From positions 1 to 27,701 of the IMG/VR virus record IMGVR_UViG_3300001460_000145: 27,701 nucleotides of DNA; one strand, 5' to 3'. The notes under the pieces are model-generated. The model was not told the DNA's origin. It worked only from the letters and a program-made list of their open reading frames with translations, and did not search any database. This document shows, in pieces, positions 1,653-17,384 of this stretch. Made by a program: the position numbers and the translations under genes. This stretch comes from a virus. Position 1 is the first letter of the stretch. Every line of letters starts with the position of its first letter.

Positions 1653-1892
1653 ATGATAGATTTTGATCACGCCGATATTGAACGAGTATGGAACTCCATT
1701 ATACATTACGTTCCTGAACGACAGAGATTAGACTTTGCCATTGACTTCATTAAAAGTCTAGAGGACATAGGTGTGGAGCATGACGTACTCAAAGGATCTG
1801 CAGAGCTTGATCCAAAACTAGAGGAAGCTGTTAATACTGTGTTCGAAGAGGAAGAATCCGATGACATGGGCTACGGCGATACTGATGAATGA
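1653..1892 (+). CDS. Small acidic protein between UvsX and UvsY, unknown function
   Basis: This 79-residue ORF starts at the base after the uvsX stop and overlaps the uvsY start by four bases (ATGA), so it is probably translated as part of that operon. The N-terminal half looks helical, with alternating charged and hydrophobic residues (ERQRLDFAIDFIKSLEDIGV at about 22-41). The C-terminus is strongly acidic and disordered-looking (FEEEESDDMGYGDTDE). I recognise no catalytic motif. Its place between two recombination genes suggests, but does not show, a role with UvsX or UvsY, for example as a small acidic partner. Confidence 0.75.
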   Translation: MIDFDHADIERVWNSIIHYVPERQRLDFAIDFIKSLEDIGVEHDVLKGSAELDPKLEEAVNTVFEEEESDDMGYGDTDE

Positions 1893-2350
1893 TAAATTGG
1901 TACAACGAAGTAAGCAGAAACCTAGATAAAATTCCAGATTGTGTTGCGTACTTTGACAACGAGTTACTCGAAGCAAGGAAGCAGTGTAAGATATACGGCA
2001 ATCTCGAACGAGCCAGTGCCTCATTGCCAGGCATAGTAGAAGAAAGATTTAGTCAACTGCAACAACTAGAAGCAATCCTAGAATATTTAAACATAGAATT
2101 ACGTAGATTAAGGTCAAAGACTTTTAGAAAATATCTAGAAAATTATAACAGAGCACTATCAAGCAGGGACGCAGAGAAGTATGTGGATGGCGAAGATGAT
2201 GTCGTAGACATGGATAAAATAATCAACGACTTTGCATTGATAAGGAATCAATGGTTAGGCATCACCAAAGGTTTAGACCAAAAACAATGGCAGATAACAA
2301 ACATTGTTAAACTGAGAGTAGCAGGAATGGAAGATGCCGATATCTCATAA
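1889..2350 (+). CDS. uvsY: UvsY recombination mediator
   Basis: UvsY loads UvsX onto single-stranded DNA covered with gp32 and stabilises the presynaptic filament. This 153-residue protein is close in size to T4 UvsY (137). The middle and C-terminal segments are typical of the family: LEYLNIELRRLRSKTFRKYL at about 65-84, and RNQWLGITKGLDQKQWQITN at about 119-138. The protein is rich in basic and aromatic residues and has no signal peptide or membrane segment. The ATG overlaps the stop of the preceding ORF by four bases. The next ORF starts inside its 3' end with a 17-base overlap, which is where the glycan island begins. Confidence 0.92.
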   Translation: MINWYNEVSRNLDKIPDCVAYFDNELLEARKQCKIYGNLERASASLPGIVEERFSQLQQLEAILEYLNIELRRLRSKTFRKYLENYNRALSSRDAEKYVDGEDDVVDMDKIINDFALIRNQWLGITKGLDQKQWQITNIVKLRVAGMEDADIS

Positions 2351-2984
2351 TAGTTATAATAGAATAATTCTCACAGATGTTGACGGAGTACTGTTGGAAT
2401 GGGAACATCATTTCACCAAGTGGTTGCAACTACGATCATATTTTGATAAAAAAGGTGTTAGGAAATACCCGTATAAATTAGTCGACGATTCACATAAAAA
2501 TTTAAGCTCAAGTTATGAAATGTCAAAAAGATTTGGCGTAGATAGAGATGTAATTAGACAAGAGATTAGGGAGTTCAATAGGAGTGCTTGGATGGGGACA
2601 CAAAGGCCTATGCTGGAATCTCAAACATGGGTAAAACTTTTAGCGGCAGAGGGTTGGACATTTGTACCAATAACATCTCAGACTTCAGACGTGCCTGCAC
2701 AAGAACTACGTAAGAAAAGATTGGGAGAACTATTTGGAGATCACATCTTCACAAATTACCACATACTAGGCACAGGAGCAGACAAAGACGGTGCATTAGC
2801 CGACTTCCATGATACCGGACTGTATTGGGTCGAGGACAAGCCAAAGAACGCACTAGCAGGGCTCTCATACGGTTTAAAGCCTATATTAATTGACCATCCA
2901 TACAATCGAGACTTTGAACACCCCGACATTATACGTGTAAGTAATTGGAAACAAATACATCAAATTTTGTCAGGTAGAAAATGA
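2334..2984 (+). CDS. HAD-superfamily hydrolase (phosphatase-like)
   Basis: The 216-residue protein has the HAD signature in order. Motif I is LTDVDGVLLE with nucleophile D15 and acid D17. The motif II Thr/Ser region is VPITSQT, a Lys-containing GADKDGAL forms the motif III area, and the acidic motif IV is YWVEDKPKNA. HAD enzymes of this size usually remove phosphate from small substrates such as nucleotides or sugar phosphates; the substrate here is not readable. The start lies within the uvsY 3' end and the stop overlaps the next ATG by four bases. It heads a plus-strand run of glycan genes, so a sugar phosphate or polyol phosphate substrate is possible. A nucleotidase is an alternative. Confidence 0.82.
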   Translation: MPISHNSYNRIILTDVDGVLLEWEHHFTKWLQLRSYFDKKGVRKYPYKLVDDSHKNLSSSYEMSKRFGVDRDVIRQEIREFNRSAWMGTQRPMLESQTWVKLLAAEGWTFVPITSQTSDVPAQELRKKRLGELFGDHIFTNYHILGTGADKDGALADFHDTGLYWVEDKPKNALAGLSYGLKPILIDHPYNRDFEHPDIIRVSNWKQIHQILSGRK

Positions 2985-3655
2985 AAATATACGTAGGACA
3001 CGACAGCAGAGAAGACATAGCATACCAAGTGTGTGAACACAGCATAAAGAGAAGAGATCCATCTGCAGAAGTAGTACCATTAAAGCAGAAACAGATGCGT
3101 GATCAAGGACTTTACACACGTCCTGTTGACAAACTTGCTTCAACAGAATTTACATTCACAAGATTTTTCGTACCATACATGAATGACTTCAAGGGCTGGG
3201 CAGTATTCTGCGATTGCGATTTTCTTTGGAAAATTCCAAGCCACGAACTGATAAAATACTGCGACCCATCAAAAGCAGTAGTTGTTGTACAGCATGATTA
3301 CACACCAAAAGAGACAACGAAGATGGACGGACAGGTACAAACATCATATCCAAGGAAAAATTGGTCTAGTATGGTTTTGTGGAATTGTGAACATCCTAAA
3401 AATAAGATACTTACACCGGAACTGCTTAATGAGGAATCACCAAAGTTCCTACATAGATTTAGTTGGTTAGAGGATAACGAAATTGGAGAACTGCCTCTGG
3501 AATACAATTGGCTAGTGGAATGGTACAAAGAGCCTAGGGACGGCACACCTAAGATACTGCACTACACAGAAGGCGGACCATGGTTTGATGGTTATAGAGA
3601 TTGCGAGTATGCAGACGATTGGAAGAAAGAGTTAATTAATCTCTTCAGTGCCTAA
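2981..3655 (+). CDS. GT-A fold glycosyltransferase (GT8-like, DxD)
   Basis: This 224-residue protein begins MKIYVGHDSREDIAYQVCEH, a typical N-terminus of phage GT8-like transferases. It carries the metal and nucleotide-sugar binding DxD motif as VFCDCDF (D78, D80). Near the C-terminus is LHYTEGGPWFDGY, an HxxxGxxW-type segment seen at the sugar donor site of such enzymes. It is expected to move a sugar from a nucleotide donor to a glycan or protein acceptor in the cytoplasm. There is no membrane segment. It overlaps both neighbours by one to four bases, so it is part of the plus-strand island operon. Donor and acceptor are unknown. Confidence 0.82.
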   Translation: MKIYVGHDSREDIAYQVCEHSIKRRDPSAEVVPLKQKQMRDQGLYTRPVDKLASTEFTFTRFFVPYMNDFKGWAVFCDCDFLWKIPSHELIKYCDPSKAVVVVQHDYTPKETTKMDGQVQTSYPRKNWSSMVLWNCEHPKNKILTPELLNEESPKFLHRFSWLEDNEIGELPLEYNWLVEWYKEPRDGTPKILHYTEGGPWFDGYRDCEYADDWKKELINLFSA

Positions 3656-4377
3656 TGATAGCAATATGTGTGTCTGGGATCATAAGTGAAAACTACAAAA
3701 CCGTAGTAGATAGAATTAGATCCATTTTTCCATACCCAATATTTTTCTCAACGTGGAATGGTCGGCCATTACCAGAGGTAGAGAACCTACACACATTTGA
3801 TGAACCAACTTTTGAATATCATCCCATGCTGGATGTGGAGGAACCACCGTGTGCAATATTTGGTCACTTGGTAAAAAAGTCTGGCAAGATTAGACGCCTA
3901 GGTAGAGAAAAACAAACACTTACAAGTGCCACACAGATACTAGGACACTGTGCCTTGGTCAATGCTATACCCGAGACATACACTACAATTATAAGGCTGA
4001 GGTATGACACTATAGTTTCGTCAGAAGTGGACTTCACCAAATATATAAAGATGGCAGAGAATGGCACAGTGATAGGATTTGGAAACTTCAACAGCGAGAA
4101 ACAAAGTTGGGAACTTGCTGAACCTTCGTCGAAGCTCAAAGAATATACACACAAAAGCACCCCAAGATCTCACTACAACATATGGGACAACATGATTATC
4201 CACCCTAGGGAGAAATGTGCTAATGCTTTCAAACTGTTTGAACAAAAGAAATTGATTGGCATGGAGTGGGGTTGGTATCAAGTTCTTTGTGATCAATGGG
4301 ATAGCACAGACTATATAAATGTAAACGGCGGCGTGATACTTGAGAAACTATGCACGACACCTATTGAACAAATATGA
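3655..4377 (+). CDS. Putative glycosyltransferase, WavE-like
   Basis: The 240-residue protein opens with a hydrophobic MIAICVSGII strand and then has FFSTWNG at 30-36 and RLRYDT at 114-119. This combination of an S/T-W segment and an Arg-x-Arg-Tyr-Asp segment resembles WavE-type lipopolysaccharide synthesis proteins, in which the Asp is thought to act like a reduced DxD. A later segment, HYNIWDNMIIHP, fits the acceptor half of such proteins. The assignment is by pattern only. Its start overlaps the preceding stop as TAATG and its end overlaps the next start as ATGA, so it is translationally coupled with transferases on both sides. Another carbohydrate-active role remains possible. Confidence 0.55.
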   Translation: MIAICVSGIISENYKTVVDRIRSIFPYPIFFSTWNGRPLPEVENLHTFDEPTFEYHPMLDVEEPPCAIFGHLVKKSGKIRRLGREKQTLTSATQILGHCALVNAIPETYTTIIRLRYDTIVSSEVDFTKYIKMAENGTVIGFGNFNSEKQSWELAEPSSKLKEYTHKSTPRSHYNIWDNMIIHPREKCANAFKLFEQKKLIGMEWGWYQVLCDQWDSTDYINVNGGVILEKLCTTPIEQI

Positions 4378-4811
4378 ATTGGGAAAAATTAAAAAAGAAT
4401 CATTACTACACAGAGCCAGTAGAACACATCCACACTGCACAAGTTTTTGATACACAAGAGTATGACAAACTTTATGAGAACCAAAAAGACCTTAATCATA
4501 AGGTATGGAATAAATTTAAAAATCAATATAAAGTAGATTTCAAATTCAATGAACAGCTTACAGACTTAGATCTCGATCCTGATGTGATTGCAATCTGGGC
4601 TTTCAGAGACAGGAGTCACAGATGGACGGCTCCACACATAAATGTTGGTGGTAAAAAAATTGCGTATACAGGCAACGCTTTTATAGTAACAAAATGCAAA
4701 GACATCAGAATAGAAGATGTTAAAAGGAAACACTTATGGACACCGTTTGTGCAGATCACCATGTCCGACGATCAATATAACTCGATTGTAAGTAGATTTA
4801 ATGGCAAATAA
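4374..4811 (+). CDS. Conserved-looking protein of unknown function in the glycan island
   Basis: I do not recognise this 145-residue protein. The first 55 residues are charged and aromatic (NHYYTEPVEHIHTAQVFDTQ). The middle is more ordered, with VIAIWAFRDRSHRWTAPHIN at about 71-90, an Asp-Arg-His/Trp-rich patch that could form an active site, then a Gly-rich GGKK turn. There is no signal peptide and no membrane helix. It is wedged by short overlaps between a WavE-like protein and an FkbM methyltransferase, so a part in glycan modification is a fair guess from context only. Confidence 0.7.
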   Translation: MNWEKLKKNHYYTEPVEHIHTAQVFDTQEYDKLYENQKDLNHKVWNKFKNQYKVDFKFNEQLTDLDLDPDVIAIWAFRDRSHRWTAPHINVGGKKIAYTGNAFIVTKCKDIRIEDVKRKHLWTPFVQITMSDDQYNSIVSRFNGK

Positions 4812-5367
4812 TAATAGACCAACAGACCACGAAAGAAGAATTCAAACATGGAATCTTGCTAAAAAATATATCAAAGGTTACGGCACGGCATTAGATTGCG
4901 GTGCACACATAGGGGAATACACAGAAATATTTGCAAAGGAATTCACTAAAGTAATTGCAGTTGAGCCTAATCCAACATTTCAGACTAAATGGTATGATAA
5001 TTGTGGCCAGTTAGAAAATGTCGAATTGATAACAAAAGCCTTGGGACATTGTGAGGGTAAGATGTTTCGAGACAATCCATTAGCACAAGTCTTACAAGTG
5101 AACCAAAAGGGAGACATGCCGATGGTAACATTAGATAGTCTCGACATTGATAATTTAAGTTTCATTAAAATAGATGTAGATGGCTCCGAAGCAAGACTGC
5201 TCGAAGGAGCAATACAAACTATTAAAAAATCTAATCCAGTTATACAGATAGAAATTAAAGACAAGAAAAGACCGGAAGTAAAAAAGAAAGTGCTACAATT
5301 ACTGTCCGAATTAAAGTATGTTCCAAAAGAAAGACGAGGATCTGATTGGATATACGTAAATATTTAG
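4801..5367 (+). CDS. FkbM-family SAM-dependent methyltransferase
   Basis: The 188-residue protein has the SAM-binding motif I at LDCGAHIGEY (31-40), the acidic end of strand 2 at VEPNP (54-58), and the FkbM-type C-terminal block FIKIDVDGSEARLLEGA at about 121-137. FkbM enzymes O-methylate small molecules or sugars, and in phage and bacterial surface clusters they usually methylate glycans. The length is at the short end for the family. It overlaps the preceding gene by 11 bases and is followed directly by the next ATG. A second FkbM protein lies on the minus strand at 6658-7356; the two differ outside the motifs. Confidence 0.88.
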   Translation: MANNNRPTDHERRIQTWNLAKKYIKGYGTALDCGAHIGEYTEIFAKEFTKVIAVEPNPTFQTKWYDNCGQLENVELITKALGHCEGKMFRDNPLAQVLQVNQKGDMPMVTLDSLDIDNLSFIKIDVDGSEARLLEGAIQTIKKSNPVIQIEIKDKKRPEVKKKVLQLLSELKYVPKERRGSDWIYVNI

Positions 5368-5976
5368 ATGATAGGACAAAATTTTGTAGACAAATGTTTA
5401 GACTCCACTGTTGAACACAGTCCATGGCCCCACCAAATTATAGAGGATACGTTACCAAAAGATACCTTTCAAAAGCTGAAACAACAATGCGAACAGAGAT
5501 TTTCAGACAAGACCGATAAACTTATTCACATTCATCCAACCGAGTTTAAAGATTATGGTATTGATTTTTATGATGAAACATTAGATATTTGTGATAAGTT
5601 GTATAAAAATTCTAAAACACTACACGAAGCATATCCAAGCTACAGGACTTATCCGGTATTAGGTATTAATGTTCATATCAGTGTAACACCTCCTTTGCCT
5701 TATAAATTCTACATACACCAGGAAGGTATAGAAAAAACCTGGAGTTCAGTTACTTACATTACCCCAGAAGTAAATGTTGGAACAAAAATGTATGCCAAAC
5801 AAAACGAATCTAGTTTTGTTAAAGAGGCAAAGTGGAAGCCCAATTCTACTTTTATTTTTTGTGGTCAGCAAAATAAAACATGGCACAGCTACGAAAGTGA
5901 TCAGATATCAAACAGGATTACTTTTAATATTTTTGTAATGAAATATAGAGATAAGAAATGTTTCTACAAAGGCTGA
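5368..5976 (+). CDS. 2-oxoglutarate/Fe(II) oxygenase-like protein
   Basis: The C-terminal half of this 202-residue protein fits the double-stranded beta-helix fold of prolyl-hydroxylase-like 2OG oxygenases. FYIHQEGIEKTWSSVTYI carries a first metal pair H117-x-E119. VGTKMYA is the usual Gly-Thr turn, KWKPNSTFIFCG precedes the distal His in TWHSYE (H173), and NRITFNIFVM supplies R183, which would bind 2-oxoglutarate. Most family members have H-x-D, so Glu at 119 is a variant. Enzymes of this type are frequent in marine T4-like phages and hydroxylate proteins, sugars or nucleobases. This is the last plus-strand gene before the first minus-strand block, and its end overlaps the opposing gene by 13 bases. 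Confidence 0.72.
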   Translation: MIGQNFVDKCLDSTVEHSPWPHQIIEDTLPKDTFQKLKQQCEQRFSDKTDKLIHIHPTEFKDYGIDFYDETLDICDKLYKNSKTLHEAYPSYRTYPVLGINVHISVTPPLPYKFYIHQEGIEKTWSSVTYITPEVNVGTKMYAKQNESSFVKEAKWKPNSTFIFCGQQNKTWHSYESDQISNRITFNIFVMKYRDKKCFYKG

Positions 5977-6665
5977 TCGAAAATTCCTTTTGCTATCTTT
6001 AACATGTCATAATCTGGTTTGAATTTTTGCGATCCCATGGCGTGACCGAAGTAAGCGTTTATACCATTCTTTTTATTGTATTTCCAATCCATCTTTTCTA
6101 TCTCTACACCAGACTCTAGCATAGCATATATGAGTTGCTCGTTGTCATCTCCCTGTAAGACTTTGTAGTCTAAATGTGTTTTCATCTTGTCTACTGCTGT
6201 TTTGTTAAGCATAAAAACTCCGGCATTAAATCTATTATCTTGTAAAACTTTTGCTGTAAATTTTTCTAGACATGTGTCTTTTGCACGTTTGGTATGATAA
6301 GGTAGTGTGTTTTTCTTTGCTATTCTATCCTGCACTGGTTTGAATTTACTAGCAGATGGGTATTCTTTGAATACATCTGGTGCGGTAGGCCATACGATAA
6401 CGTCAGTGTCAAGATAAAGAATGTGATCATATTCCTGCCACCACTCGTCATTGAAAAATAGGTCAAATCTCTCAAACGTAGGGTGTATCCAATTTATTTT
6501 TGGTTGTGTAATCAATTTATACTCTGCACCTATCCTGTTGGCATATTGCTTTACTGAAATTGTGCTATACTTGTAAAGTTCCTCGTTAACTCCAATTTGG
6601 TTGTAGGTAGGGTCTTCGTACTTGTCAACAGATACGAAAAATTGGACAATTAAATTTCTAGTCAT
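5964..6665 (-). CDS. GT-A fold glycosyltransferase (DxD), paralogue of 9911-10666
   Basis: This 233-residue protein has HPTFERFDLF at 61-70, the DxD motif in LYLDTDVIVW (D86, D88), NAGVFMLNK in the middle and GHAMGSQK near the C-terminus, a set typical of GT8-like retaining transferases. It shares its layout closely with the protein at 9911-10666 (an N-terminus of the M-T/R-x-N-L type, HPT-F/W-ERFDL, D-x-D-V-I, APD-V/I-F-EYP), so the two are paralogues. It is the last gene of the minus-strand block 8808-5964 and overlaps the FkbM gene ahead of it by eight bases. Donor and acceptor are unknown. Confidence 0.85.
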   Translation of the reverse strand: MTRNLIVQFFVSVDKYEDPTYNQIGVNEELYKYSTISVKQYANRIGAEYKLITQPKINWIHPTFERFDLFFNDEWWQEYDHILYLDTDVIVWPTAPDVFKEYPSASKFKPVQDRIAKKNTLPYHTKRAKDTCLEKFTAKVLQDNRFNAGVFMLNKTAVDKMKTHLDYKVLQGDDNEQLIYAMLESGVEIEKMDWKYNKKNGINAYFGHAMGSQKFKPDYDMLKIAKGIFDQPL

Positions 6666-7356
6666 TTGAAAAAATATAGTTAAATTCTTCTTCGTTACGT
6701 TTGTGTTGTGATTGCAAGGTCAATCCTAAGTCCTTGATTTTTTGTACGAATTCTATATGTTTGTTATCTATTTCTATTAGTACACTTTTGCATTTTTGTA
6801 TTGTTGCGTATGAACCTTTGATTACTCTATCTTCAAATCCGTCAACATCAATTTTAATGTGAGTTGGCTGTGGTAAAATACCTTTGCCTACCAGATAGTC
6901 TAAATGCATCTCAGTACATCCATGGTAGTAGTTACCACGCTGTCCAACTTTGTTGTCTGCAACACCCTCGTGCATATTTTTTACATTGATAGTACTCAGT
7001 GATATTTGGTTGCTCAATGCAACGCAGTAGGCCTGACACTTGTCGAGCTTATTCAAATTAATGCTGTCTAGTAAATTTTTGTAACTTGCAGAATGAGGCT
7101 CGAAAGAATACACAGTGTTCTCACGCATCACAGCACTATACAAAGTGTAGATACCAATATTAGCACCAACATCAAAAAACACACTGTCTTTTGTAAAGGA
7201 ATTAATCCATTTAATTGTTTCTGGTTCTTTAGACATTATTCTGTCCATTCTATTTTTAATATATGTTTTTTGTCCTTTGACATTGGCAAATTTTATTGTT
7301 TTATCTTTAATCGGGAAATTAAAACTATCCGTGTCATAACTTTTTAATTTTGGCAT
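6658..7356 (-). CDS. FkbM-family SAM-dependent methyltransferase
   Basis: The 232-residue protein has motif I FFDVGANIGIYTL at about 60-72, the strand-2 acidic residue in YSFEPHSAS at about 83-91, and the FkbM block HIKIDVDGFEDRVIKG at about 166-181. Methylation of a glycan hydroxyl is the likely role, given transferases on both sides. It is longer than the plus-strand FkbM protein at 4801-5367, with an extra N-terminal region of roughly 50 residues before motif I and an insertion between SFEP and IDVDG. The start overlaps the stop of the upstream minus-strand gene by one base. Confidence 0.88.
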   Translation of the reverse strand: MPKLKSYDTDSFNFPIKDKTIKFANVKGQKTYIKNRMDRIMSKEPETIKWINSFTKDSVFFDVGANIGIYTLYSAVMRENTVYSFEPHSASYKNLLDSINLNKLDKCQAYCVALSNQISLSTINVKNMHEGVADNKVGQRGNYYHGCTEMHLDYLVGKGILPQPTHIKIDVDGFEDRVIKGSYATIQKCKSVLIEIDNKHIEFVQKIKDLGLTLQSQHKRNEEEFNYIFSND

Positions 7357-8168
7357 TATAATATTCCTTTGTCCATTAAAACTTCAACAGCGGTTCCGTT
7401 TGCAAATTCTTCTGGTGTAAACTGTTGATAGGCCAGACTGTACAACCACGGCTCCGGGCCACCGTAATATGGATTCTCTATGTCTGCCAATTCAACATTG
7501 CCAACGTCTACAGCAAAACTTTTATTATCACAGAAAACCGGTATGCCTTCGCACATAGCTTCTATCGCCGATATAGAACAACTTGTTACAATGCACCATG
7601 CCTCTTTTAGGTCTTCCGATAACGGAACTGTTGCTTCGCTTGGCCCTGACGTACCCCTACCTCTGGGCTTGTGTCGAACTCTGATAGGCCTGTCGGTGTA
7701 TCTTTTGATCTGTTCTATTATTTCTTTAGTCCAGTTTGGTTTGTCTAGATAGTCGTGTATGCCTGCGGAACTAGGACAAACTAATATGTACTTGCCGGCA
7801 AAGTTCGGTGCCTTAATTTTTATTCCAAACTTTTCAAATCTGTCTGCTTTACAATTTTTCAAGTAAGGAACATGTATAGCATTCTTGCACACACGCCAGT
7901 AATGATTGTCCGGCTTCAGATTATTATTGTCAAATCTACCAAAGTATGGTGTATCAGTAAACCAATAGTTGTGATTACGTGCTTCTAACTTCCTGACCAT
8001 CCCCCTGTTGTTGCCAACGAATCCCCAAAACATACTGTTGCTTACTGGATCTGTTTCTACAGCATTATCTAACTTGGTTATCTGGTCTGGCCACGACTTT
8101 TCAACGCCGTTGAACACTTCCCATGCCTTGCTGTTTTTATTATTAAATGGTGCGTAAATTGTTAACAT
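7356..8168 (-). CDS. Capsule-synthesis-like (KpsS/KpsC-like) glycosyltransferase, paralogue 1 of 4
   Basis: This 270-residue protein shows a two-part GT-B-like pattern. The N-terminal half has NYWFTDTPYFGR. The C-terminal half has NWTKEIIEQI, YTDRPIRVRHKPRG, then AWCIVTSCSISAIEAMCEGI-PVF and LADIENPYY, and ends with LAYQQFTPEEFANG. The S/T-rich turn followed by an E-A-x-x-x-G-I/V-P segment is characteristic of Kdo-transferase-like capsule proteins of the PF05159 type. Three other proteins in this window share this order of segments (10685-11497, 11487-12470, 15116-15985), the first of them with the same length. There is no signal peptide. The sugar transferred is unknown. Its start lies 26 bases inside the end of the SGNH gene. 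Confidence 0.65.
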   Translation of the reverse strand: MLTIYAPFNNKNSKAWEVFNGVEKSWPDQITKLDNAVETDPVSNSMFWGFVGNNRGMVRKLEARNHNYWFTDTPYFGRFDNNNLKPDNHYWRVCKNAIHVPYLKNCKADRFEKFGIKIKAPNFAGKYILVCPSSAGIHDYLDKPNWTKEIIEQIKRYTDRPIRVRHKPRGRGTSGPSEATVPLSEDLKEAWCIVTSCSISAIEAMCEGIPVFCDNKSFAVDVGNVELADIENPYYGGPEPWLYSLAYQQFTPEEFANGTAVEVLMDKGIL

Positions 8169-8808
8169 CTATGAATTCTTTTAGTTGTTCCGCCCATTGT
8201 ACATGCCCTTCTGTTGACGGGTGTGGGTCTGCTGGGCTGACGATTAAATTTTTATCTGTAATATATTCTAAATGACTAACAGTAGGATTGAAAAATCTTT
8301 CCATGTTGATAGCATTCTTTATTGTTTTAAAATCTTGTAATTCTCCGTCAAAAGAATTAGGTAGTGCGTTGTACATCACGTACGGTATTCCTTTTCTTTC
8401 AAAATAATTTTGAAGATCAAATACGTTATCTAAGAAAGCCATAGTGGCATTGTTCTCTATATCCCATCCTGTATTACTTTTTATAAAACTAACATTGTCT
8501 AGTGTCTTCCATGTCCTCCATGTAAGATCTGTTCCGGGCATTCTACCTTTTTTCCACCCATCGTTTGTAATATAATCATTTCGATAAGCACTGGACCATC
8601 CTATCACAGCAAATGTGTCTTCTGTACCAAAATGCTCAAAATAAGTCTTAGTAGAGAAACTAATTCTTGTGTTTCCCCTGCCTCCCATAGCAATATTTTC
8701 AATATCCATGCCGTAAAGATCGGCAAGATGTCTGGTTACAAATGTGTTTACACCATCCTTGGGACGAAGTGTAAGGAAACTACAACCATTTGAAAATATT
8801 TTTGACAT
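8143..8808 (-). CDS. SGNH/GDSL-type hydrolase-like protein
   Basis: The 221-residue protein carries the SGNH blocks in order: a nucleophile block FSNGCSFL (S10), a Gly/Asn block MGGRGNTR at 41-48 that would form the oxyanion hole, and a C-terminal DPHPSTEGH (D194, H196) supplying the acid and base. SGNH enzymes in glycan clusters usually add or remove O-acyl groups. There is no secretion signal, so it should act inside the cell. It is the first gene of the minus-strand block. No Shine-Dalgarno sequence is visible before its ATG at 8808. It differs from the second SGNH protein at 26367-27086. Confidence 0.75.
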   Translation of the reverse strand: MSKIFSNGCSFLTLRPKDGVNTFVTRHLADLYGMDIENIAMGGRGNTRISFSTKTYFEHFGTEDTFAVIGWSSAYRNDYITNDGWKKGRMPGTDLTWRTWKTLDNVSFIKSNTGWDIENNATMAFLDNVFDLQNYFERKGIPYVMYNALPNSFDGELQDFKTIKNAINMERFFNPTVSHLEYITDKNLIVSPADPHPSTEGHVQWAEQLKEFIDVNNLRTI

Positions 8809-8831
8809 AGAGTAATATACTACAGTATAAT
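8802..8831 (+). promoter_or_regulatory. Near-consensus sigma70 promoter in the 31-bp divergent gap
   Basis: TTGACA (8802-8807) and TATAAT (8826-8831) are separated by 18 bases. The -35 box overlaps the start codon of the minus-strand SGNH gene. Transcription would start near 8838, two bases before the ATG of the plus-strand GT61 gene, so the message would be nearly leaderless. TATAATTA at 8826-8833 is also one base from the T4 late box. On the other strand, sequence such as TATATT could serve the minus gene, but its -35 is poorly placed. Confidence 0.5.
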
Positions 8832-8839
8832 TATTGTAA

Positions 8840-9922: not shown

Positions 9923-10666
9923 TTCCGACATGTCGGCTTGTACTTCAGGATACATTTTTTTCAACTTACCCCATATCTTAACATCTTTCTTGTGCTTTTT
10001 TCCTCCTGCACAATGTAGGAAGTAGACGTTATCGTAATCGTACCGTTCACCATTATTTTTATGATTAAACTTTCTGTCCATGTCTAACAGCGGTACTTCA
10101 CTATCTACAATGCACGAATTCAAAAACATTCCATCGTCGATCCTGTTATCTGTTACGTCTTTATACTTCTCAACCCAAGGTAACATGAATTGAGTGCTTG
10201 TCTTGTTTAAAAGTATAACACCGGGCTGTACGAACCTTTTACTAATTTGCTCGCCTGTGTAGTTGTCAGCAAGTGGATTGACTCTCTGATTAACTTTGGC
10301 GCCAACTGATCCTGCATTTCTAAACTTAGGATAGTATGCAGTCTTTAATTTATTTTCAATTTGAGGATACTCCTCAAATATATCCGGAGCATGTGGTAAA
10401 GCAATAACATCACTGTCCACGTACATAATTTGATCATACTTGTCCCACCAACTCCTGTCTGTCCATAAATCAAATCTTTCCCAGGTAGGATGCTTAAATC
10501 CTAATTTTGGTTCGGTAATTCTAAGATAATCTAAATTATATTTTTCACAGTATAGTTTGAAACTGTGCCTACTGTATTCCTCCATAGGACTAGGCTTCAA
10601 ATTATTAAACTCCGGTTGCGAATATTTTCTAATATCTATATAATATTGAATAACCAAGTTTCTCAT
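9911..10666 (-). CDS. GT-A fold glycosyltransferase (DxD), paralogue of 5964-6665
   Basis: This 251-residue protein begins MRNLVIQYYI and has HPTWERFDLW at 59-68, the DxD motif in IMYVDSDVIALP (D84, D86), a central FVQPGVILLNKTS and a C-terminal FLHCAGGKKHK. The His and Gly-Lys residues of that last segment match the donor-phosphate contacts of GT8-like enzymes. Much of its N-terminal 100 residues can be aligned by eye with 5964-6665, while the middle (about 105-140) is longer. It stands alone on the minus strand, convergent with the GT61 gene and divergent from the gene at 10685, with no obvious ribosome binding site before its ATG. Confidence 0.84.
   Translation of the reverse strand: MRNLVIQYYIDIRKYSQPEFNNLKPSPMEEYSRHSFKLYCEKYNLDYLRITEPKLGFKHPTWERFDLWTDRSWWDKYDQIMYVDSDVIALPHAPDIFEEYPQIENKLKTAYYPKFRNAGSVGAKVNQRVNPLADNYTGEQISKRFVQPGVILLNKTSTQFMLPWVEKYKDVTDNRIDDGMFLNSCIVDSEVPLLDMDRKFNHKNNGERYDYDNVYFLHCAGGKKHKKDVKIWGKLKKMYPEVQADMSELIE
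9925..9936. repeat. 12-bp perfect palindrome at a convergent gene end
   Basis: CCGACATGTCGG is a perfect palindrome three bases after the stop of the GT61 gene and inside the last codons of the opposing transferase. It is symmetric, so it would look the same in either transcript, as a short 4-bp stem with a CATG loop. No T tract follows on either side. It could be a weak bidirectional pause site, a protein-binding site, or chance. Confidence 0.3.
10616..10644 (+). promoter_or_regulatory. Candidate sigma70 promoter for the gene at 10685
   Basis: TTGCGA (10616-10621) is 17 bases before a perfect TATAAT (10639-10644). It lies inside the 5' end of the minus-strand gene 9911-10666 and points towards 10685. 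The -35 matches only four of six positions. The region is AT-rich, so a chance match is possible. Confidence 0.35.
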
Positions 10667-10684
10667 TAATAACTATTTACGATT

Positions 10685-11497
10685 ATGTTTTATTGTATAC
10701 GCACAGAAAGAGCCAACACTGAAAAATATATTGAATCCATCGCTAGAGGATCTGCAGGCAAGATCGTAAATTACCAAGACGCCATGAAGGAAGACAGTAA
10801 GAAGGTTGCGTTCATGGGAGTTTTGCGAGGCACCAACATTGTTTATAACTGGGCAAAAGAAAATAAAAAAGATTTTTATTATATAGATCGTCCTTATTGG
10901 GGAGAAAGTAGAGGCACACCTTACTGGATGAGATGTGTGAAGAACGAGCACGTCAAAACAAAGCACGAACAAAGGCCAGACGATAGATACAAAAAATATT
11001 ACAAGGGAGACACGATTGTGCCTTATCACAAAAATGGAAAATACATATTGGTTGTTCCGCCTAGCCACAGCATGGCATTACACTTCTCATCGCCAAACTG
11101 GTTAGCAGAAACAATGGCAGTACTAAAAGAGAGCACCGACCGAGAAATTATAGTGAGAGAAAAACCTTATAACCCCAAAAGCTACCTCGATGATCAAGGC
11201 AGAATGTTACCGGGACCAAGTGAAAACAAGCAACCAGAGAAACCATTCGAATGGAATAATGTACATGCTGTGGTTACATTTAACAGTTCAATCACAATCA
11301 AAGCATTGCACAACGGAGTCCCATGCTTTAGTAATTTTGAAAATCCATGTGGACAGATCTGCGAAGACGATTTTAGTAAAATAGAAACACCAAGATATGA
11401 AGATAGAGAACCCATATTCAACAGCCTAGCATATGGTCAGTTCACTCAGGATGAGTTCAGAAACGGTTGGGCATTAAGTATACTAGATGGACGTTGA
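10685..11497 (+). CDS. Capsule-synthesis-like (KpsS/KpsC-like) glycosyltransferase, paralogue 2 of 4
   Basis: This 270-residue protein has the same length and layout as 7356-8168. FYYIDRPYWGE corresponds to WFTDTPYFGR, KYILVVPPSHSMALHF to KYILVCPSSAGIHDYL, NWLAETMAVLKESTDREIIV to the matching TDRPIRV region, and AVVTFNSSITIKALHNGVPC to the IVTSCSISAIEAMCEGIPVF region. It ends SLAYGQFTQDEFRNGWAL. The N-terminal half is shorter than in the other two plus-strand paralogues. It probably transfers a sugar onto a surface-type glycan; donor and acceptor are unknown. It starts a plus-strand run that continues through asnB, overlapping the next paralogue by 11 bases. No ribosome binding site is visible. 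Confidence 0.65.
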   Translation: MFYCIRTERANTEKYIESIARGSAGKIVNYQDAMKEDSKKVAFMGVLRGTNIVYNWAKENKKDFYYIDRPYWGESRGTPYWMRCVKNEHVKTKHEQRPDDRYKKYYKGDTIVPYHKNGKYILVVPPSHSMALHFSSPNWLAETMAVLKESTDREIIVREKPYNPKSYLDDQGRMLPGPSENKQPEKPFEWNNVHAVVTFNSSITIKALHNGVPCFSNFENPCGQICEDDFSKIETPRYEDREPIFNSLAYGQFTQDEFRNGWALSILDGR

Positions 11498-12470
11498 AAT
11501 ATTCAGAAGAACAGTAAAGGATCGTAGGCGTGGAGCAAGTTACGAACTATTACAACACATGGCGGAAGGCATACGTGCCTGTGGCGACAACCCCATAATA
11601 GTAAATGAGACTAAGAGCGGAGACTGGACAGATAACGAAATGGAACCCACAGCAAAAATAGGTTGTATGTTTGGGTATGGTGGATCTAATCAAATGCATC
11701 ACACCAAAGGACGTAGAAGAGATCTAGTGGAGCGTGCCAAGAAAAAAGGAATCCATATCATCACATTTGATGGTGGAATACTATCAAGTTTTGGTAATAC
11801 AATTACACACTCTAAACATCACTGGCGTGTAAGTTTATACTCTCCTATGAACAACGGGAATTTTTTAAGTGATAATTCTCCTCCCGATAGATGGGAGATG
11901 ATGAAAAAAACATGGAACGTGAAATACGAACCATGGAGAAAATCAAATCAAAATGATCCTATACTTTTTGTCCTGCAACCAAAAGACAACTGGAGTATGA
12001 ATGAACTAGATCCTATAGAATGGTTCAACAGTGTGTATGAGAAAATACGACCCATCACAGACAGACCGTTCTTAATTCGTCCACATCCTAATCACATGGC
12101 ACACATCGAAGAACGCATAAACGAGTTTCCGGAAGACTGTAAGGTCATAATAGGCCAAAAATTCTTTAGTGGTGATGAGAAAAAATTTTACAGATTCAAC
12201 TTTCAAGAGGCAATAGCGAATTGTCATGCAGTTGTAACTCATAATAGTACTGCCAGCATTGATAGTTGTGTTCGAGGTATACCTACATTTGTAACTTCGG
12301 ATCTTGCAATATGTTGGGACGTTGCTAACAAAAATCTTAATAACATAGAAACACCCGAATATCCTGACAGAGACCAATGGGTATATGATTTAGGATACAA
12401 ACAATGGACTGAACAAGAAATAAGAAACGGCACTGTGTTTAAGAGATTCAAAGAGAGGTTGGGTTACTAA
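11487..12470 (+). CDS. Capsule-synthesis-like (KpsS/KpsC-like) glycosyltransferase, paralogue 3 of 4
   Basis: At 327 residues this is the longest of the four paralogues. The N-terminal half (about 1-150) carries a Rossmann-like start and GCMFGYGGSNQMHHTKG, absent from the 270-residue copies. The C-terminal half has the family blocks ITDRPFLIRPHPNHM, AVVTHNSTASIDSCVRGIPT and NNIETPEYPDR, and ends LGYKQWTEQEIRNGTVF. The R-P-H-P segment is shared with paralogue 4 (15116-15985), so these two form a closer pair. The start overlaps the upstream paralogue and the stop overlaps the asnB start as TAATG. A role in building the same glycan is likely from context. Confidence 0.68.
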   Translation: MDVEIFRRTVKDRRRGASYELLQHMAEGIRACGDNPIIVNETKSGDWTDNEMEPTAKIGCMFGYGGSNQMHHTKGRRRDLVERAKKKGIHIITFDGGILSSFGNTITHSKHHWRVSLYSPMNNGNFLSDNSPPDRWEMMKKTWNVKYEPWRKSNQNDPILFVLQPKDNWSMNELDPIEWFNSVYEKIRPITDRPFLIRPHPNHMAHIEERINEFPEDCKVIIGQKFFSGDEKKFYRFNFQEAIANCHAVVTHNSTASIDSCVRGIPTFVTSDLAICWDVANKNLNNIETPEYPDRDQWVYDLGYKQWTEQEIRNGTVFKRFKERLGY

Positions 12471-14209
12471 TGTGTGGGATATACGGAATCACAGAGAACA
12501 ATCCTAAGTTGATACAAGACTATATCACTGTGTGTAGCCACAGAGGACCCGATGGTTCAAAAGTTTGGTCATCACCTGACAATAATCTAACGTTAGGACA
12601 TAACTTGCTTTCGATAATGGGAGACCCAAGTACTTCCATACAGCCGTGGATGACACCCGCAGGAAATTATTTGATCTATAATGGTGAGATATTCAACTAC
12701 TACGAGCTAAAAGAAAAATATAAGTCAAAAGGGTTTGTAGCCAAAACTGACTGTGACACTGAACTGCTGGCGTGGGGACTCGATATGTTTGGACTGGACT
12801 TTATAGATGAAATAGACTCCATGCACGGTTTTGCATATTACAGAACCAATAACAAAGAATTATGGTTATCTAGGGACCATGCAGGAATTAAACCTTTGTA
12901 CTATGCTGAAATAAAACAAGGAATAATATTTGGCAGTGAAATAAAAGGAATGCTAGATCACGTGCAAGGCTCGAGGAAGATCGACGAATTAGCATTCAGT
13001 TGTATGGCACATGTTGGGATCAACGTTACACAAAATACATTCTTCTCAAATATTAAAAAATTATTAAGTGGCGAAACTATAGTATATGATGTAGCCAATA
13101 AAAAAATTAAAAACAAAAAAAGAAATTTAATAATACCTACAAACGACCATAGTTTTGATCCTGAAGAGTTTAGACATGTGACTAGAGAAAGTGTAAGAAT
13201 GTGTAGTATAGGACGGAGAAATATTGGAATATTTTTAAGTGGAGGACTTGATAGCGGTATGGTCGCTTATGAATATAGCAAATTGCACAATAACACAAAC
13301 ACATACACAAACAAGATGGAACCAAACGTAATATGGAGAGAAGACGACCATAACGACGATCACTCCAAGGCGTTACAATTAGCTCAGCAATATAAATTCA
13401 ATCACAAGGTTGTAACAATGACTCCTCAGCTATTAACAGACTGTTGGGAAGACAGCATATACTTCATGGAGCAACCGGTATATAATCCTTCAATGGCTAT
13501 GTATTATTACACAAATAAATTTTTATCGGAAGATGGCATTGTTGTTACCCTTGCAGGAGATATGGGCGATGAAGTGTTGGGAGGATATCCAAAGTATTGG
13601 AAGTTCAGAAATCAAAATAATTCATCATGGCAAGGGTTGGTCGAGCAATGGATGAATAGAATTAAAAGACCTATACTGGTAAGCAAACATCCAATAAGCA
13701 GAGGAGACCTTGGAAACTATCTCATAAAGCACTTGCCTCAAGAACTGTACAACGATCAGGATCCTGTGAATTCATACATGGCACTAGACTGTGTAACACA
13801 GGTACCGGAAGAGTTTTTCATAAGGAATGATACCTATGGCATGGCATTCAGCATGGAGGGACGTTTCCCGCTAGCTACAAAAAAATTTATGAAGTATGCA
13901 TTAAGCATTCCGTCAAAAGATAAAATAGGAAATAATAAATCAGATACAAAATTATTAAGTAAAAAAGCATATCAAAATATATTTCCAGACTCTATCGTGA
14001 ACAAGCACAAGACCGGATGGACTGCACCTGTCAAAGGATGGATACAAGATCAACAAGTAGCAAAAGAGTTTTACCAAAAAAGAATAGAGCAGAATGACTG
14101 CCTCAAAGACATTGTACTAAGAAACAACGAATCGCAAAAGTCAGCCATACCTGCTTGGATTATGAGGGAATGGGCAAATAAATTTAACATGAGTTTTGAA
14201 AGTAAATAA
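12470..14209 (+). CDS. asnB: Glutamine-hydrolysing asparagine synthase (AsnB-like amidotransferase)
   Basis: This 579-residue protein has both AsnB domains and is close to the usual length of about 550. The class II glutaminase domain begins MCGIYGI, with the catalytic Cys2 exposed after Met removal, and has SHRGPDG and YNGEIFN. The synthetase domain has the ATP PP-loop FLSGGLDSGMV (SGGLDS at 257-262), and then AGDMGDEVLGGY and EGRFPL. It would take ammonia from glutamine and transfer it to an AMP-activated carboxylate. In free metabolism that makes asparagine. In polysaccharide loci, AsnB-like enzymes amidate sugar acids or peptidoglycan-like substrates, and its place between a KpsS-like gene and a transferase favours that idea, though it is inference. 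The start is fixed by Cys2. Confidence 0.92.
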   Translation: MCGIYGITENNPKLIQDYITVCSHRGPDGSKVWSSPDNNLTLGHNLLSIMGDPSTSIQPWMTPAGNYLIYNGEIFNYYELKEKYKSKGFVAKTDCDTELLAWGLDMFGLDFIDEIDSMHGFAYYRTNNKELWLSRDHAGIKPLYYAEIKQGIIFGSEIKGMLDHVQGSRKIDELAFSCMAHVGINVTQNTFFSNIKKLLSGETIVYDVANKKIKNKKRNLIIPTNDHSFDPEEFRHVTRESVRMCSIGRRNIGIFLSGGLDSGMVAYEYSKLHNNTNTYTNKMEPNVIWREDDHNDDHSKALQLAQQYKFNHKVVTMTPQLLTDCWEDSIYFMEQPVYNPSMAMYYYTNKFLSEDGIVVTLAGDMGDEVLGGYPKYWKFRNQNNSSWQGLVEQWMNRIKRPILVSKHPISRGDLGNYLIKHLPQELYNDQDPVNSYMALDCVTQVPEEFFIRNDTYGMAFSMEGRFPLATKKFMKYALSIPSKDKIGNNKSDTKLLSKKAYQNIFPDSIVNKHKTGWTAPVKGWIQDQQVAKEFYQKRIEQNDCLKDIVLRNNESQKSAIPAWIMREWANKFNMSFESK

Positions 14210-14216
14210 AAGTATC

Positions 14217-15119
14217 ATGAAAATCAAAGTTATCACATCGTATAAACCAGGCACGTGGGAACAATTTGCTAAGAAAGGCATAGAGTCGATGGCAGAACAA
14301 TTTCCAAAAGAAATAGACATTGTTGTGTATGCGGAAGAGCCTAAACCCAATTGTGAGCATGAAAGAATACAATGGGTAGATCTCAATTCTGCAGAGCCTG
14401 AATTGTTTAAGTTTAAAAACAAACATAAAAACGATCCTGTTGCTAATGGTGAACTTCAAGAGATAGAGGGCGGAGTAAGACGATCCGCAGAACTACAAGT
14501 AAAAGGTGGTAAAGACAAAAACAAAGGATCATTCCTTTGGGCCGCTGTAAGATTCTCAAACAAAGTATTCTGTGTTGTGAATGCTGTACGTAATTCAAAA
14601 GACCACGACTATGTCGTATGGATAGATGCCGATACATTTACATTCAGACCTGTGCCAATAGACTTCTTTGAAAAACTGTTACCACAAGGCACCATGTTGA
14701 CATACCTAGGTCGTGAGAATCCAAATCTCAACGACGGTGGCAAATATCCAGAATGCGGCTTCGTTGGATACAACATGAAGCATCCAGAGATACAAAACTT
14801 TGTGAATGATTGGGAAAAACTTTATGTTACAGACGAGGTGTTCAAACTACTAGAGTGGCACGACAGTTATGTGTTTTGGCACCTGTCAAAAATATACAGA
14901 AAAGAAAAAAACATACAAGTAAACGATATAGGATACTGGGTTGGGGTCAAAGGACACCATGTGTTTGTCAACAGTGAATTAGGATTATACATGGATCACA
15001 TGAAGGGTAAACGTAAAAAACACGGCACCAGTGGACGCAACGACTTACGTGCTAATCCAAATGCACCAGTAGATATTTTTTCAGTGGACTATTGGAAGAA
15101 AGCGCCACCGGCGGTATGA
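14217..15119 (+). CDS. GT-A fold glycosyltransferase-like protein (DxD)
   Basis: The 300-residue protein begins MKIKVITSYKPG and has a DxD motif in DYVVWIDADTFTFRP (D137, D139), followed by MLTYLGRENPN, GFVGYNMKHPE and a late YMDHMKGKRKKHG. This order fits a nucleotide-sugar transferase of GT-A fold, but it is not close to the other DxD enzymes of the island. A TTG at 14196 would give seven more residues inside the asnB end. ATG 14217, seven bases after the asnB stop, gives a clean beta-strand start and is preferred. The end overlaps the next start by four bases (ATGA). Confidence 0.75.
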   Translation: MKIKVITSYKPGTWEQFAKKGIESMAEQFPKEIDIVVYAEEPKPNCEHERIQWVDLNSAEPELFKFKNKHKNDPVANGELQEIEGGVRRSAELQVKGGKDKNKGSFLWAAVRFSNKVFCVVNAVRNSKDHDYVVWIDADTFTFRPVPIDFFEKLLPQGTMLTYLGRENPNLNDGGKYPECGFVGYNMKHPEIQNFVNDWEKLYVTDEVFKLLEWHDSYVFWHLSKIYRKEKNIQVNDIGYWVGVKGHHVFVNSELGLYMDHMKGKRKKHGTSGRNDLRANPNAPVDIFSVDYWKKAPPAV

Positions 15120-15985
15120 AGATAGAAGTGTGGACCGAATTTGGGCCTTTGAACAGTAAACCAATCTTTGAGGCTTTTATCAAAAGTTTAAACAAGGCAG
15201 GTGAAGAAGTACATATCAACAAAAGCGTTAACGGAGATGTCGCAGTGATATGGAGTGTATTATGGCGTGGCAGAATGCTTGGATACAAAAAAATATGGGA
15301 GGAGTTTCGTTCTAAAGGAAAACCTATTATTGTAATAGAAGTAGGAGGACTAAGGAGAAACGAAAGCTTCAAAATAGGAATCAACGGAATAAACAGAGAT
15401 GCAGACTTCGCCAATCAAACGTTCGACGACAAACGATGGCCATTGTTTAAACATACACTGAAGCCATGGAATTCAACAGGTGATTTAGTTGTAATTTGCG
15501 GTCAGCATGATACCAGCGAGCAGTGGAAAGATTTGCCAAAAATGAACACATGGATATCCAGACAGATAGACGAGATAAGAAAATTTACATCCAGACCAAT
15601 ATTAGTAAGACCCCATCCTAGAAACGAAATAAAATTTGACGTATCAAACTATAAAAATGTTAAAGTAAGACCGCCCAAGCGTGACTATACCACATATGAT
15701 GACACAGATTTCAAAGCCACGTTGGAAAGAACCTGGGCAGTGGTTAACCATAGTTCAAACCCTGCAATGGAATCAGTAATAAGGGGTATTCCTGTTTTCG
15801 TTAGTCCTAGCAGTCTTTGTTTTGAAGTTGGTAATGAAAAACTAGCAGACATCAACTATCCTGCAATGCCAAATAGATTGACCTGGGCGAACAAATTAGC
15901 GTACACTGAATGGTTCCCTAAGGAGATCGAAGCAGGATTACCATGGAAAAGATTAAAAAAACGTTTACAGGAGAAATACTTATAA
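15116..15985 (+). CDS. Capsule-synthesis-like (KpsS/KpsC-like) glycosyltransferase, paralogue 4 of 4
   Basis: The 289-residue protein has the C-terminal blocks of its three paralogues: WISRQIDEIRKFTSRPILVR and then PHPRNE, AVVNHSSNPAMESVIRGI with PVFVSP, LADINYPAMPNRLTW and LAYTEWFPKEIEAG. The N-terminal half starts MKIEVWTEFGPLN and has VEVGGLRR-like Gly turns. It is nearest to paralogue 3 by the RPHP segment. A TTG at 15092 would add eight residues, but ATG 15116 overlaps the upstream stop as ATGA, the pattern used through this operon, so I chose it. It is probably a transferase in the same glycan pathway. Confidence 0.68.
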   Translation: MKIEVWTEFGPLNSKPIFEAFIKSLNKAGEEVHINKSVNGDVAVIWSVLWRGRMLGYKKIWEEFRSKGKPIIVIEVGGLRRNESFKIGINGINRDADFANQTFDDKRWPLFKHTLKPWNSTGDLVVICGQHDTSEQWKDLPKMNTWISRQIDEIRKFTSRPILVRPHPRNEIKFDVSNYKNVKVRPPKRDYTTYDDTDFKATLERTWAVVNHSSNPAMESVIRGIPVFVSPSSLCFEVGNEKLADINYPAMPNRLTWANKLAYTEWFPKEIEAGLPWKRLKKRLQEKYL

Positions 15986-16122
15986 TGGATGAAATTAAGA
16001 TTTTGAAAAGGCAAATACAAGAAGAAGTAAAAGAAAAATACTATCTATATAGAAGAATAAAAGAATTAAACGAAAAAATTCAAATTTTAGAAAGGTCTAA
16101 TGCAAACAATAAATCTGTCTAA
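15985..16122 (+). CDS. Small charged coiled-coil-like protein (45 aa)
   Basis: This short ORF begins MDEIKILKRQIQEEVKEK and ends in a TAA at 16120-16122. The ATG shares its A with the stop of the preceding gene (TAATG), the coupling used repeatedly in this operon. The protein is almost entirely Glu, Lys, Arg, Ile and Leu with hydrophobic residues at 3-4 spacing, so it should form one long amphipathic helix or coiled coil. It overlaps the next gene by 23 bases. No homologue is recognised. Coupling and composition make it likely to be real; a helical adaptor between transferases would be a guess. Confidence 0.6.
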   Translation: MDEIKILKRQIQEEVKEKYYLYRRIKELNEKIQILERSNANNKSV

Positions 16123-16852
16123 CCGTAATCAAATTGATCCAATAGAGTTTACTCCTTATACCGGTGAAAATGTTTGTGTTAACACTACGATAAGAAAAGG
16201 AAAACGAATCCAAGATATTAAATTTTTCCCTGATAAAGTCAAAGCCGTTCTGAGAGGCAATGCCTATTGCATAGGTAACGGGCCTTCACGTAAAGGTGTT
16301 GATCTATCGCGATTAAAAGAATCAGGACAGACTTATGGATGTAATGCATTATATCGTGACTTCATGCCGGATTATATTTTCTCAGTAGATACAAAAATGA
16401 CAATGCAAATGGTCGAAGACGAAGTTGGTTTAAAGACAGTTCACTATGCCCCGGCACTTGAAGTAAATAGAAAGCAGAGCAAAGGTATGTTAAATCTTAT
16501 ACCTAATAACCCACACTGGATATCGGGAAATGCGGCCTACTGGACAGCAGGGGTTCACGGACACAAAAACATTTTTTTACTAGGTTATGATTTTAGAGAG
16601 TACGGCAAAGGCCAGCTGAACAACATCTACCAAGGTACAGATTGTTATGGTGAAAGGAACGATGATAAAATATTTGAAGGCTGGTTAAAGCAGTTCCGTG
16701 ATATGATCAAGATGAGACCTTACGTAAACTATACCGTTGTTCATGACGATCCTCCAGAGTACCTAGATCACCTACAGACAGGAACAGACCATGGCAATAG
16801 CAGAGTCATCACTATTAAAGAATTTGAGGATACTGTACTAGCCAGTTCTTGA
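16100..16852 (+). CDS. GNGPS-motif protein, sialyltransferase (GT42)- or MptE/DUF115-like
   Basis: The 250-residue protein contains YCIGNGPSRKGVDLSRL at about 57-72 (GNGPS 59-63), GCNALYRDF at 80-88, a following DYIFSVDTK (D97), and ISGNAAYWTA with IFLLGYDF further on. The GNGPS plus CN-x-x-Y pair is the signature of GT42 sialyltransferases such as CstII and of the related MptE/DUF115 fold found in flagellin-modification proteins. Both bind nucleotides. In a glycan island a sugar transferase, possibly of a nonulosonic acid, is the better guess, but the sugar cannot be named. It is the last plus-strand gene of the island and its end overlaps the SprT-like gene by 15 bases. Confidence 0.65.
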   Translation: MQTINLSNRNQIDPIEFTPYTGENVCVNTTIRKGKRIQDIKFFPDKVKAVLRGNAYCIGNGPSRKGVDLSRLKESGQTYGCNALYRDFMPDYIFSVDTKMTMQMVEDEVGLKTVHYAPALEVNRKQSKGMLNLIPNNPHWISGNAAYWTAGVHGHKNIFLLGYDFREYGKGQLNNIYQGTDCYGERNDDKIFEGWLKQFRDMIKMRPYVNYTVVHDDPPEYLDHLQTGTDHGNSRVITIKEFEDTVLASS

Positions 16853-17320: not shown

Positions 17321-17322
17321 GG

Positions 17323-17350: not shown

Positions 17351-17384
17351 ATACTAATAATTATCAATATTACCGGATTTGAAA

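Follow-up and report, generated by a model that had tools for sequence, protein, structure and literature searches.

What do the genes between uvsY and uvsW in the IMG/VR virus record IMGVR_UViG_3300001460_000145 build, and onto which acceptor? The window that we analysed is this one record at its full length of 27,701 bases, and the element in question is an island of 19 tightly packed open reading frames (ORFs), on both strands, at positions 2334-16852. We propose, with a probability of about 0.6, that it is a serotype-like modular locus whose enzymes build, within the infected cell, a decorated glycan with an ulosonic acid among its sugars, most likely 3-deoxy-D-manno-oct-2-ulosonic acid (Kdo).

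A first-pass annotation had seen here some twenty genes for building a glycan, and the content of transferases and decorating enzymes supports that function. The gene count stands, with one ORF (15943-16122) doubtful, and so does the estimate of at least ten transferase-like proteins: we count ten that are glycosyltransferase-like (2981, 5964r, 7356r, 8840, 9911r, 10685, 11487, 14217, 15119 and 16100), among which 8840 alone passes a Pfam cutoff, the others being assigned from PHROG relatives, predicted fold or motifs. The island reads as follows.

2334-2984, plus strand: HAD-like phosphatase, backbone gene (weak PF06941, 0.0012; PHROG 420, 5e-28), beside uvsY in every relative covering that side
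2981-3655, plus strand: GT2981, a GT-A-like glycosyltransferase with a DCD motif, backbone gene (46-50% to Mosig and S-SCSM2R proteins)
3655-4377, plus strand: protein without a family match, in the window only (single-member family)
4374-4811, plus strand: g4374, small cassette gene (7/21 haplotypes)
4801-5367, plus strand: FkbM methyltransferase (PF05050, 5.6e-14)
5368-5976, plus strand: putative 2-oxoglutarate (2OG)-oxygenase-like cassette gene (7/21 haplotypes)
5964-6665, minus strand: GT8-like glycosyltransferase, cassette gene (PF01501, 0.005, below cutoff; PHROG 28746, 4e-27)
6658-7356, minus strand: FkbM methyltransferase (PF05050, 1.3e-13)
7356-8168, minus strand: g7356r, glycosyltransferase with a predicted KpsC/WbbB fold (AlphaFold2 model), backbone gene, RxKP type (21/21 haplotypes)
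8143-8808, minus strand: SGNH-like hydrolase/acyltransferase, four allele classes (conserved GCSF and D.HP...G motifs)
8840-9922, plus strand: GT61 glycosyltransferase, backbone gene (PF04577, 9.8e-23)
9911-10666, minus strand: GT8-like glycosyltransferase, marker of the window's central cassette (PHROG 28746, 7e-18), same family as 5964-6665
10685-11497, plus strand: g10685, KpsC-like paralogue, RxKP type, four allele classes
11487-12470, plus strand: g11487, KpsC-like paralogue with an RPHP CMP-binding motif
12470-14209, plus strand: AsnB-type amidotransferase, optional cassette gene (TIGR01536, 4.6e-87; 11/21)
14217-15119, plus strand: g14217, GT-A-like protein with a DAD motif, four allele classes (conserved; no family match)
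15119-15985, plus strand: g15119, KpsC-like paralogue with an RPHP motif
15943-16122, plus strand: short ORF of 59 aa, doubtful (no supporting family)
16100-16852, plus strand: ST, a GT42/DUF115-like transferase, backbone gene (Cst-II motifs in order; PHROG sialyltransferase, 0.006; 21/21 haplotypes)

Both FkbM methyltransferases and the AsnB, which is over its TIGR01536 cutoff, had been named correctly. The SGNH hydrolase is consistent with its two motifs but weaker, as it has no gathering-level Pfam match, and the 2OG oxygenase was not confirmed in the window: 5368-5976 has no Pfam match, and a clear one is in another haplotype. The match of 16100-16852 to Cst-I/Cst-II is weak (E 0.025, with two motifs in order), and its AlphaFold2 model, with a pLDDT of 38, was not used. 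Profiles of g14217 and GT2981 found no match in the PDB, and no tail-fibre match was found among the island ORFs with PHROG profiles.

Is this collection a pathway, or merely cargo at a permissive site? We compared the window with 20 close relatives (21 haplotypes), on contigs that are fragments of at most 61 kb each. The island is present in 20/20 relatives examined, and its backbone follows one order, HAD, GT2981, FkbM, g7356r, SGNH, GT61, g10685, g11487, g14217, g15119, ST, SprT and g17379, with few broken or missing members as exceptions. The interval between uvsY and uvsW is 16.4 kb long in the window and 12-19 kb in the relatives having both borders. The genes that frame the island are these.

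483-1652: UvsX (PHROG 97, 4e-64)
1889-2350, plus strand: UvsY, left border (PHROG 231, 2e-16; 93-100% identity among 20 sequences)
16838-17338, minus strand: SprT-like protease, conserved right-hand neighbour (every relative)
17379-18722, plus strand: g17379, a 447-aa protein with no function assigned, conserved neighbour (21/21 haplotypes)
18724-20190, plus strand: UvsW helicase, right border (PHROG 16, 2e-76)

The first-pass annotation had thus placed the island rightly between uvsY and uvsW, but it does not abut uvsW, since the SprT-like gene and g17379 intervene. It had also called the site a hot spot for cargo. Its content is variable and its borders are conserved, as expected from that description, but the cargo is not arbitrary: because 20/20 relatives share an ordered backbone with swappable cassettes, we regard the uvsY-uvsW site as a maintained pathway and not as an open cargo site. 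Two relatives depart from the common pattern in ways that either decay or assembly error could explain: L087 (around 9731-14118) has an AsnB apparently split in two frames and a broken g10685, and L099 has no intact g15119.

How freely the cassettes move can be read from the alleles. Median pairwise protein identity is 98% for both UvsY and UvsW (minimum 93% each), compared with 67% for GT61, 50% for g14217 and 44% for both g10685 and the SGNH-like protein, and these last four each fall into four allele classes. Identity matrices define two linkage blocks. The first holds g10685, g11487 and g14217 (rho 0.77-0.84), with GT61 more loosely attached (0.44-0.62), while the second holds g7356r, g15119, ST and g17379 (rho 0.59-0.87), within which g7356r, g15119 and ST reach 0.67-0.87. 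Between the blocks rho is 0.13-0.35, the value for g10685 and g15119 being 0.13; g10685 gives 0.04 against uvsY (p 0.25) and a weak 0.34 against uvsW. The permutation p values are indicative, as the sequences are related, and distance correlations alone are no proof of recombination. Since the second block encloses the first on the map, the middle is most simply seen as exchanged as a unit.

The accessory genes partly follow the classes. A 2OG gene adjoins the nine alleles of one class, a GDP-mannose dehydratase and a second g14217 accompany four alleles of another, and GT8 is found with 3/4 members of the window's class and a sulfotransferase with three. An epimerase with a GT2-type gene, a radical SAM gene, AsnB and g4374 combine more freely with the classes. 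Altogether, the comparison shows that the central and left-hand cassettes are swapped between phages largely independently of their flanks. By-eye inspection of the virion protein g24571 against cassette type revealed no association.

Which sugar would such a locus handle? The proteins g7356r, g10685, g11487 and g15119 form one paralogous family that standard profiles leave unnamed. The fold was examined on one modelled paralogue of the four, g7356r, whose AlphaFold2 model (53 aligned sequences, mean pLDDT 85.7) retrieves KpsC first from the PDB with Foldseek (E 1.3e-6), with WbbB and KrkA also listed; absence of a family from these structure-search rows is no evidence against that family. With VIA-align, the model reaches Z 11-11.9 over 217-240 residues against KpsC and WbbB, and 8.6 at most against unrelated enzymes. 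Two motifs define the retaining Kdo transferases, QXXXD for the nucleophile and (K/R)XHP for CMP (PMC10148158, PMC12887879). The latter, as (K/R)xHP, is present in every allele of g11487 (21/21) and g15119 (20/20) and in 30/49 wider members, and the Gln is retained in most HP-type members. Asp72 of g7356r was considered as the KpsC nucleophile and dropped, as PMC10148158 puts the nucleophile in QXXXD. The paralogues probably work like CMP-ulosonate transferases, and we do not assign them to GT99, GT107 or GT140.

The relatives point to the donor. Where UvsW is 88% identical, on a contig of the metagenome-assembled genome (MAG) MED657 (L206; also L306 and L308), kdsB lies within the island and overlaps the adjoining KpsC-like gene. 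A more distant relative (UvsW 62%), on a 335-kb contig in another MAG, has its own uvsY-uvsW island and a kdsA-kdsB pair about 3 kb beyond uvsW; its KdsA is over the NCBIfam cutoff, and its KdsB matches KdsB models best, below their cutoffs. Some 30 further IMG/VR contigs (UvsW near 60%) carry the order KpsC-like, g14217, KpsC-like, uvsW, g20191, kdsA, kdsB, g20901. On account of the predicted KpsC/WbbB fold and of these kdsB or kdsA-kdsB genes in or beside the relatives' islands, we infer that CMP-Kdo is the likeliest donor, host-made in the window's phage and phage-made in the sister clade. Supply by the host in the window's clade, provided that the host is Gram-negative, as homologues suggest, would follow from the lack of any kds gene in the loci of that clade that were compared. 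It had been argued earlier that the island carries no recognisable gene for nucleotide-sugar synthesis, lipid carrier or export and must feed on host precursors. This description is correct for the window, but dependence on the host fails as a general rule, since genes for GDP-mannose dehydratase, an epimerase, KdsA and KdsB occur in relatives.

In one cyanophage of the collection, too, a homologue of GT2981 lies close to genes with KdsA and KdsB annotations. The 335-kb contig also carries, at 271-276 kb (L302 11471-15708), homologues of GmhB, HldD and HldE with cupin-like and 2OG-like genes, a cluster that, judged from its sequence, is likely an ADP-heptose pathway; PF01943 (flippase), PF02397 and PF00483 found no match on that contig.

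Homologues of the island genes also exist in bacteria. Those of GT2981 (55-60%) are found in many Alphaproteobacteria, and in two single-cell genomes of marine Alphaproteobacteria (L223, L262), GT2981, two KpsC-like genes, a TPR protein and a g14217 homologue are clustered on the chromosome, among housekeeping genes and without obvious export genes. These clusters indicate a toolkit common to the phage and marine Alphaproteobacteria.

These elements can be assembled into a working model. The KpsC-like transferases would be fed with CMP-Kdo, supplied by the host or by phage KdsA/KdsB; GT2981, GT61, the GT8-like and the GT42-like proteins would add further sugars; and FkbM, AsnB, 2OG and SGNH proteins would vary the chemistry, joined in other haplotypes by the sulfotransferase, the epimerase and the GDP-mannose dehydratase. 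None of the window's island proteins rises above the membrane-span threshold in hydropathy, and because they look soluble, assembly would occur in the cytoplasm or at the adjoining face of the membrane. From there, virion proteins may be glycosylated before release, or lipid A-core may be extended at the inner membrane and then exported by host machinery. We slightly favour a virion protein as acceptor over host lipopolysaccharide (LPS), giving it a little less than even odds, because no initiating transferase, flippase, polymerase or exporter is present (no initiating sugar-phosphate transferase, PF02397, was found in the window island).

Several observations weigh against this model, either at the donor or at the acceptor. 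The family resembles KpsC (GT107), WbbB (GT99) and KrkA (GT140) through the predicted fold of g7356r, the CMP motif in 2/4 paralogues and the kds genes nearby in relatives, but unlike these enzymes, the window proteins are single domains of about 270-330 aa without a PDB sequence-profile relation: a sequence search of the PDB with KpsC-like profiles gave nothing useful, and Capsule_synth PF05159 found no match in the window. In g7356r and g10685, that is in two of the four paralogues, RxKP replaces RxHP. The four window paralogues lack QXXXD where it would be expected, and 3/49 family members have it in exact form; since this is the nucleophile motif in known Kdo transferases, the donor is inferred. 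Neither kdsA nor kdsB was found in the window or in the close-relative loci compared. One Rhodobacteraceae contig has a GT2981 homologue beside waaA-kdsD-kdsA-kdsB, which fits LPS. Finally, the suggested timing of expression does not favour a virion acceptor. Two promoter-like sites were found in the island region.

8802-8831, plus strand: sigma-70-type promoter match, 12/12 (full consensus), in a divergent gap
17323-17350, plus strand: conserved promoter-like site with an extended -10, before g17379

The T4-type late motif TATAAATA lies at 24547-24554, 24 nt before the virion structural gene g24571 (24571-25350), and recurs at the same spacing before this gene in seven stretches of relatives, while none was found upstream of the island-region ORFs. 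Late-type octamers precede 20/82 structural-region ORFs against 22/424 island-region ORFs, the sequences being related. The presence of sigma-70-type sites and the scarcity of late-type motifs at the island suggest, as far as sequence motifs can tell, that it is expressed early or middle.

Could the target then be the host surface? According to this explanation, soluble transferases would add Kdo and other sugars to lipid A-core, host MsbA and Lpt would export the product, and the altered surface would block other phages. The LPS core typically involves Kdo and enzymes of the GT8 and GT42 types, which fits such a target, as do the ADP-heptose homologues of the 335-kb contig, the Rhodobacteraceae arrangement and the suggested early expression. 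Similar inferences were published for pelagimyophages (PMC7029224) and jumbo cyanophages (PMC7824862). However, the phage brings no ligase, flippase or exporter, kds genes lie close to the GT2981 homologue in only 3/73 bacterial loci, one of which has waaA there as well, and clade-wide retention exceeds what one would expect of optional exclusion genes. We consider host LPS as acceptor, and remodelling of the host surface with it, a serious contender to which we give roughly one chance in three.

The other explanations fare much worse. The product could be a small diffusible glycoside or a modified amino acid and not a coating, as was proposed for the second cluster of jumbo cyanophages (PMC7824862); AsnB in the window and the 2OG and radical SAM enzymes of some haplotypes would suit it. 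Ten transferases and several allele classes exceed the needs of a small product, and there is no transporter, so that we find this improbable. In T4, glycosyltransferases modify the phage DNA and thereby confer resistance to restriction, and this island too sits among replication genes; but KpsC-like, SGNH, FkbM and AsnB proteins, with the sulfotransferase, GDP-mannose dehydratase and KdsB of relatives, fit surface glycans, and no modified-base synthesis gene was recognised within the window, which is part of a genome, making DNA glycosylation very improbable. An integration hot spot, where unrelated cargo piles up without a common pathway, would account for several single-occurrence genes and for the different content at the same site in the phages Phosso and Atu_ph07, but since 20/20 close relatives share one ordered backbone and the sister clade (UvsW near 60%) has related content, we give it hardly any weight.

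To which phages does the locus belong? Membership of the pelagimyophages, which the first-pass annotation implied, is not borne out: the best cultured matches of UvsW are Sinorhizobium phage Phosso, Agrobacterium phage Atu_ph07 and PA5oct-type phages (51-53% identity). Identity to Phosso is 53% for UvsW, 68% for UvsX, 49% for UvsY and, for the TerL of the window's relatives, 47%, and the order TerL, 338-aa protein, UvsX, UvsY, UvsW, primase, DnaB is the same in these relatives and in Phosso, a 469-kb phage. In Phosso the uvsY-uvsW gap is 2.8 kb with three unrelated genes and no island, and in Atu_ph07 it is about 6 kb of unrelated small genes; neither interval was matched by the g17379 or SprT profile or by those of the island families tested. 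Judged against these two outgroups, the island may have been gained in the window's lineage or lost in Phosso. UvsW relatives are encoded on 530 IMG/VR stretches, of which the best 80 are all at least 93% identical. A search of the phage collection at the DNA level with the window gave no match, and neither did an Rfam search nor a tRNA search of the window. The moraphages of PMC12619734 were rejected as kin, being a separate Bacteroidota-associated lineage. The MAGs that contain contigs of the phage group (L205, L206, L207, L208, L214, L215, L234) bear names as different as Pelagibacter, Rickettsiales, Verrucomicrobia, Neomarinimicrobiota and Euryarchaeota, so that the label of a MAG gives no indication of the host.

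Variable genes also occur outside the island. A 406-aa ORF at 21316-22536 is shared with L027 (49% identity) and missing at the same place in most relatives, and a second SGNH-like protein at 26367-27086, after the primase gene, is found in few relatives (L043, L058). Some relatives have a second small SGNH-like and KpsC-like pair further downstream, near DnaB (L107 12840-14485; L113 8553-10198; L114 726-2371), with radical SAM and FkbM genes close to it.

How does the locus compare with known systems? Like bacterial O-antigen and capsule loci, it has conserved borders, an exchangeable central cassette, and transferases with decorating enzymes; unlike them, it is borne by a phage, in the replication region, and has no initiating transferase, flippase, polymerase or exporter. 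Jumbo cyanophages and pelagimyophages already provide examples of polymorphic clusters of glycosyltransferases (PMC7824862, PMC7029224). Those of the jumbo cyanophages (PMC7824862) share several transferases, 2OG and methyltransferase genes and polymorphism between related phages, but they belong to another lineage and do not have the fixed uvsY-uvsW position, the conserved backbone and the KpsC-like paralogues of the island. The host recognition cluster of pelagimyophages (PMC7029224), also from marine phages, is likewise large, hypervariable and equipped with glycosyltransferases, but its place is between vrlC and gp14, and it includes tail fibres, which the uvsY-uvsW island does not have. 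Pelagibacter phage Mosig and Caulobacter phage C1 have GT2981 and KpsC-like homologues beside methyltransferases, but in clusters of some six or seven genes located elsewhere (beside the ruvC and ribonucleotide reductase genes, and between a large gene and lysozyme). A predicted Kdo pathway is known in giant viruses, and clusters such as that of CroV place virus-encoded Kdo synthesis beside transferases and methyltransferases, but these are viruses of eukaryotes, and there too the pathway is predicted and its activities are unproven (PMC9614988). We found no paper in the open-access literature in which phage kds genes are joined with KpsC-like transferases. The position at one fixed locus, the organisation in cassettes and the link to Kdo appear to be new.

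Taken to its full extent, our reading would be that an abundant marine jumbo-phage lineage displays Kdo-containing glycans on its virions by means of a divergent KpsC-fold family, and swaps virion 'serotypes' through recombination at a single fixed locus, while phages of a sister clade produce their own CMP-Kdo; in this complete form we hold it to be rather unlikely. Marine phage glycosyltransferases are common, yet their product and target are nearly always obscure. Here, the conserved order, the allele exchange, the recognisable fold and the kds genes linked to the locus leave CMP-Kdo as the one likely donor and two acceptors to choose from. If the virions carry the glycan, these phages would have an antigen-like variation of their own particles, and if host LPS is the target, the locus would show how the change of the surface during infection is diversified.

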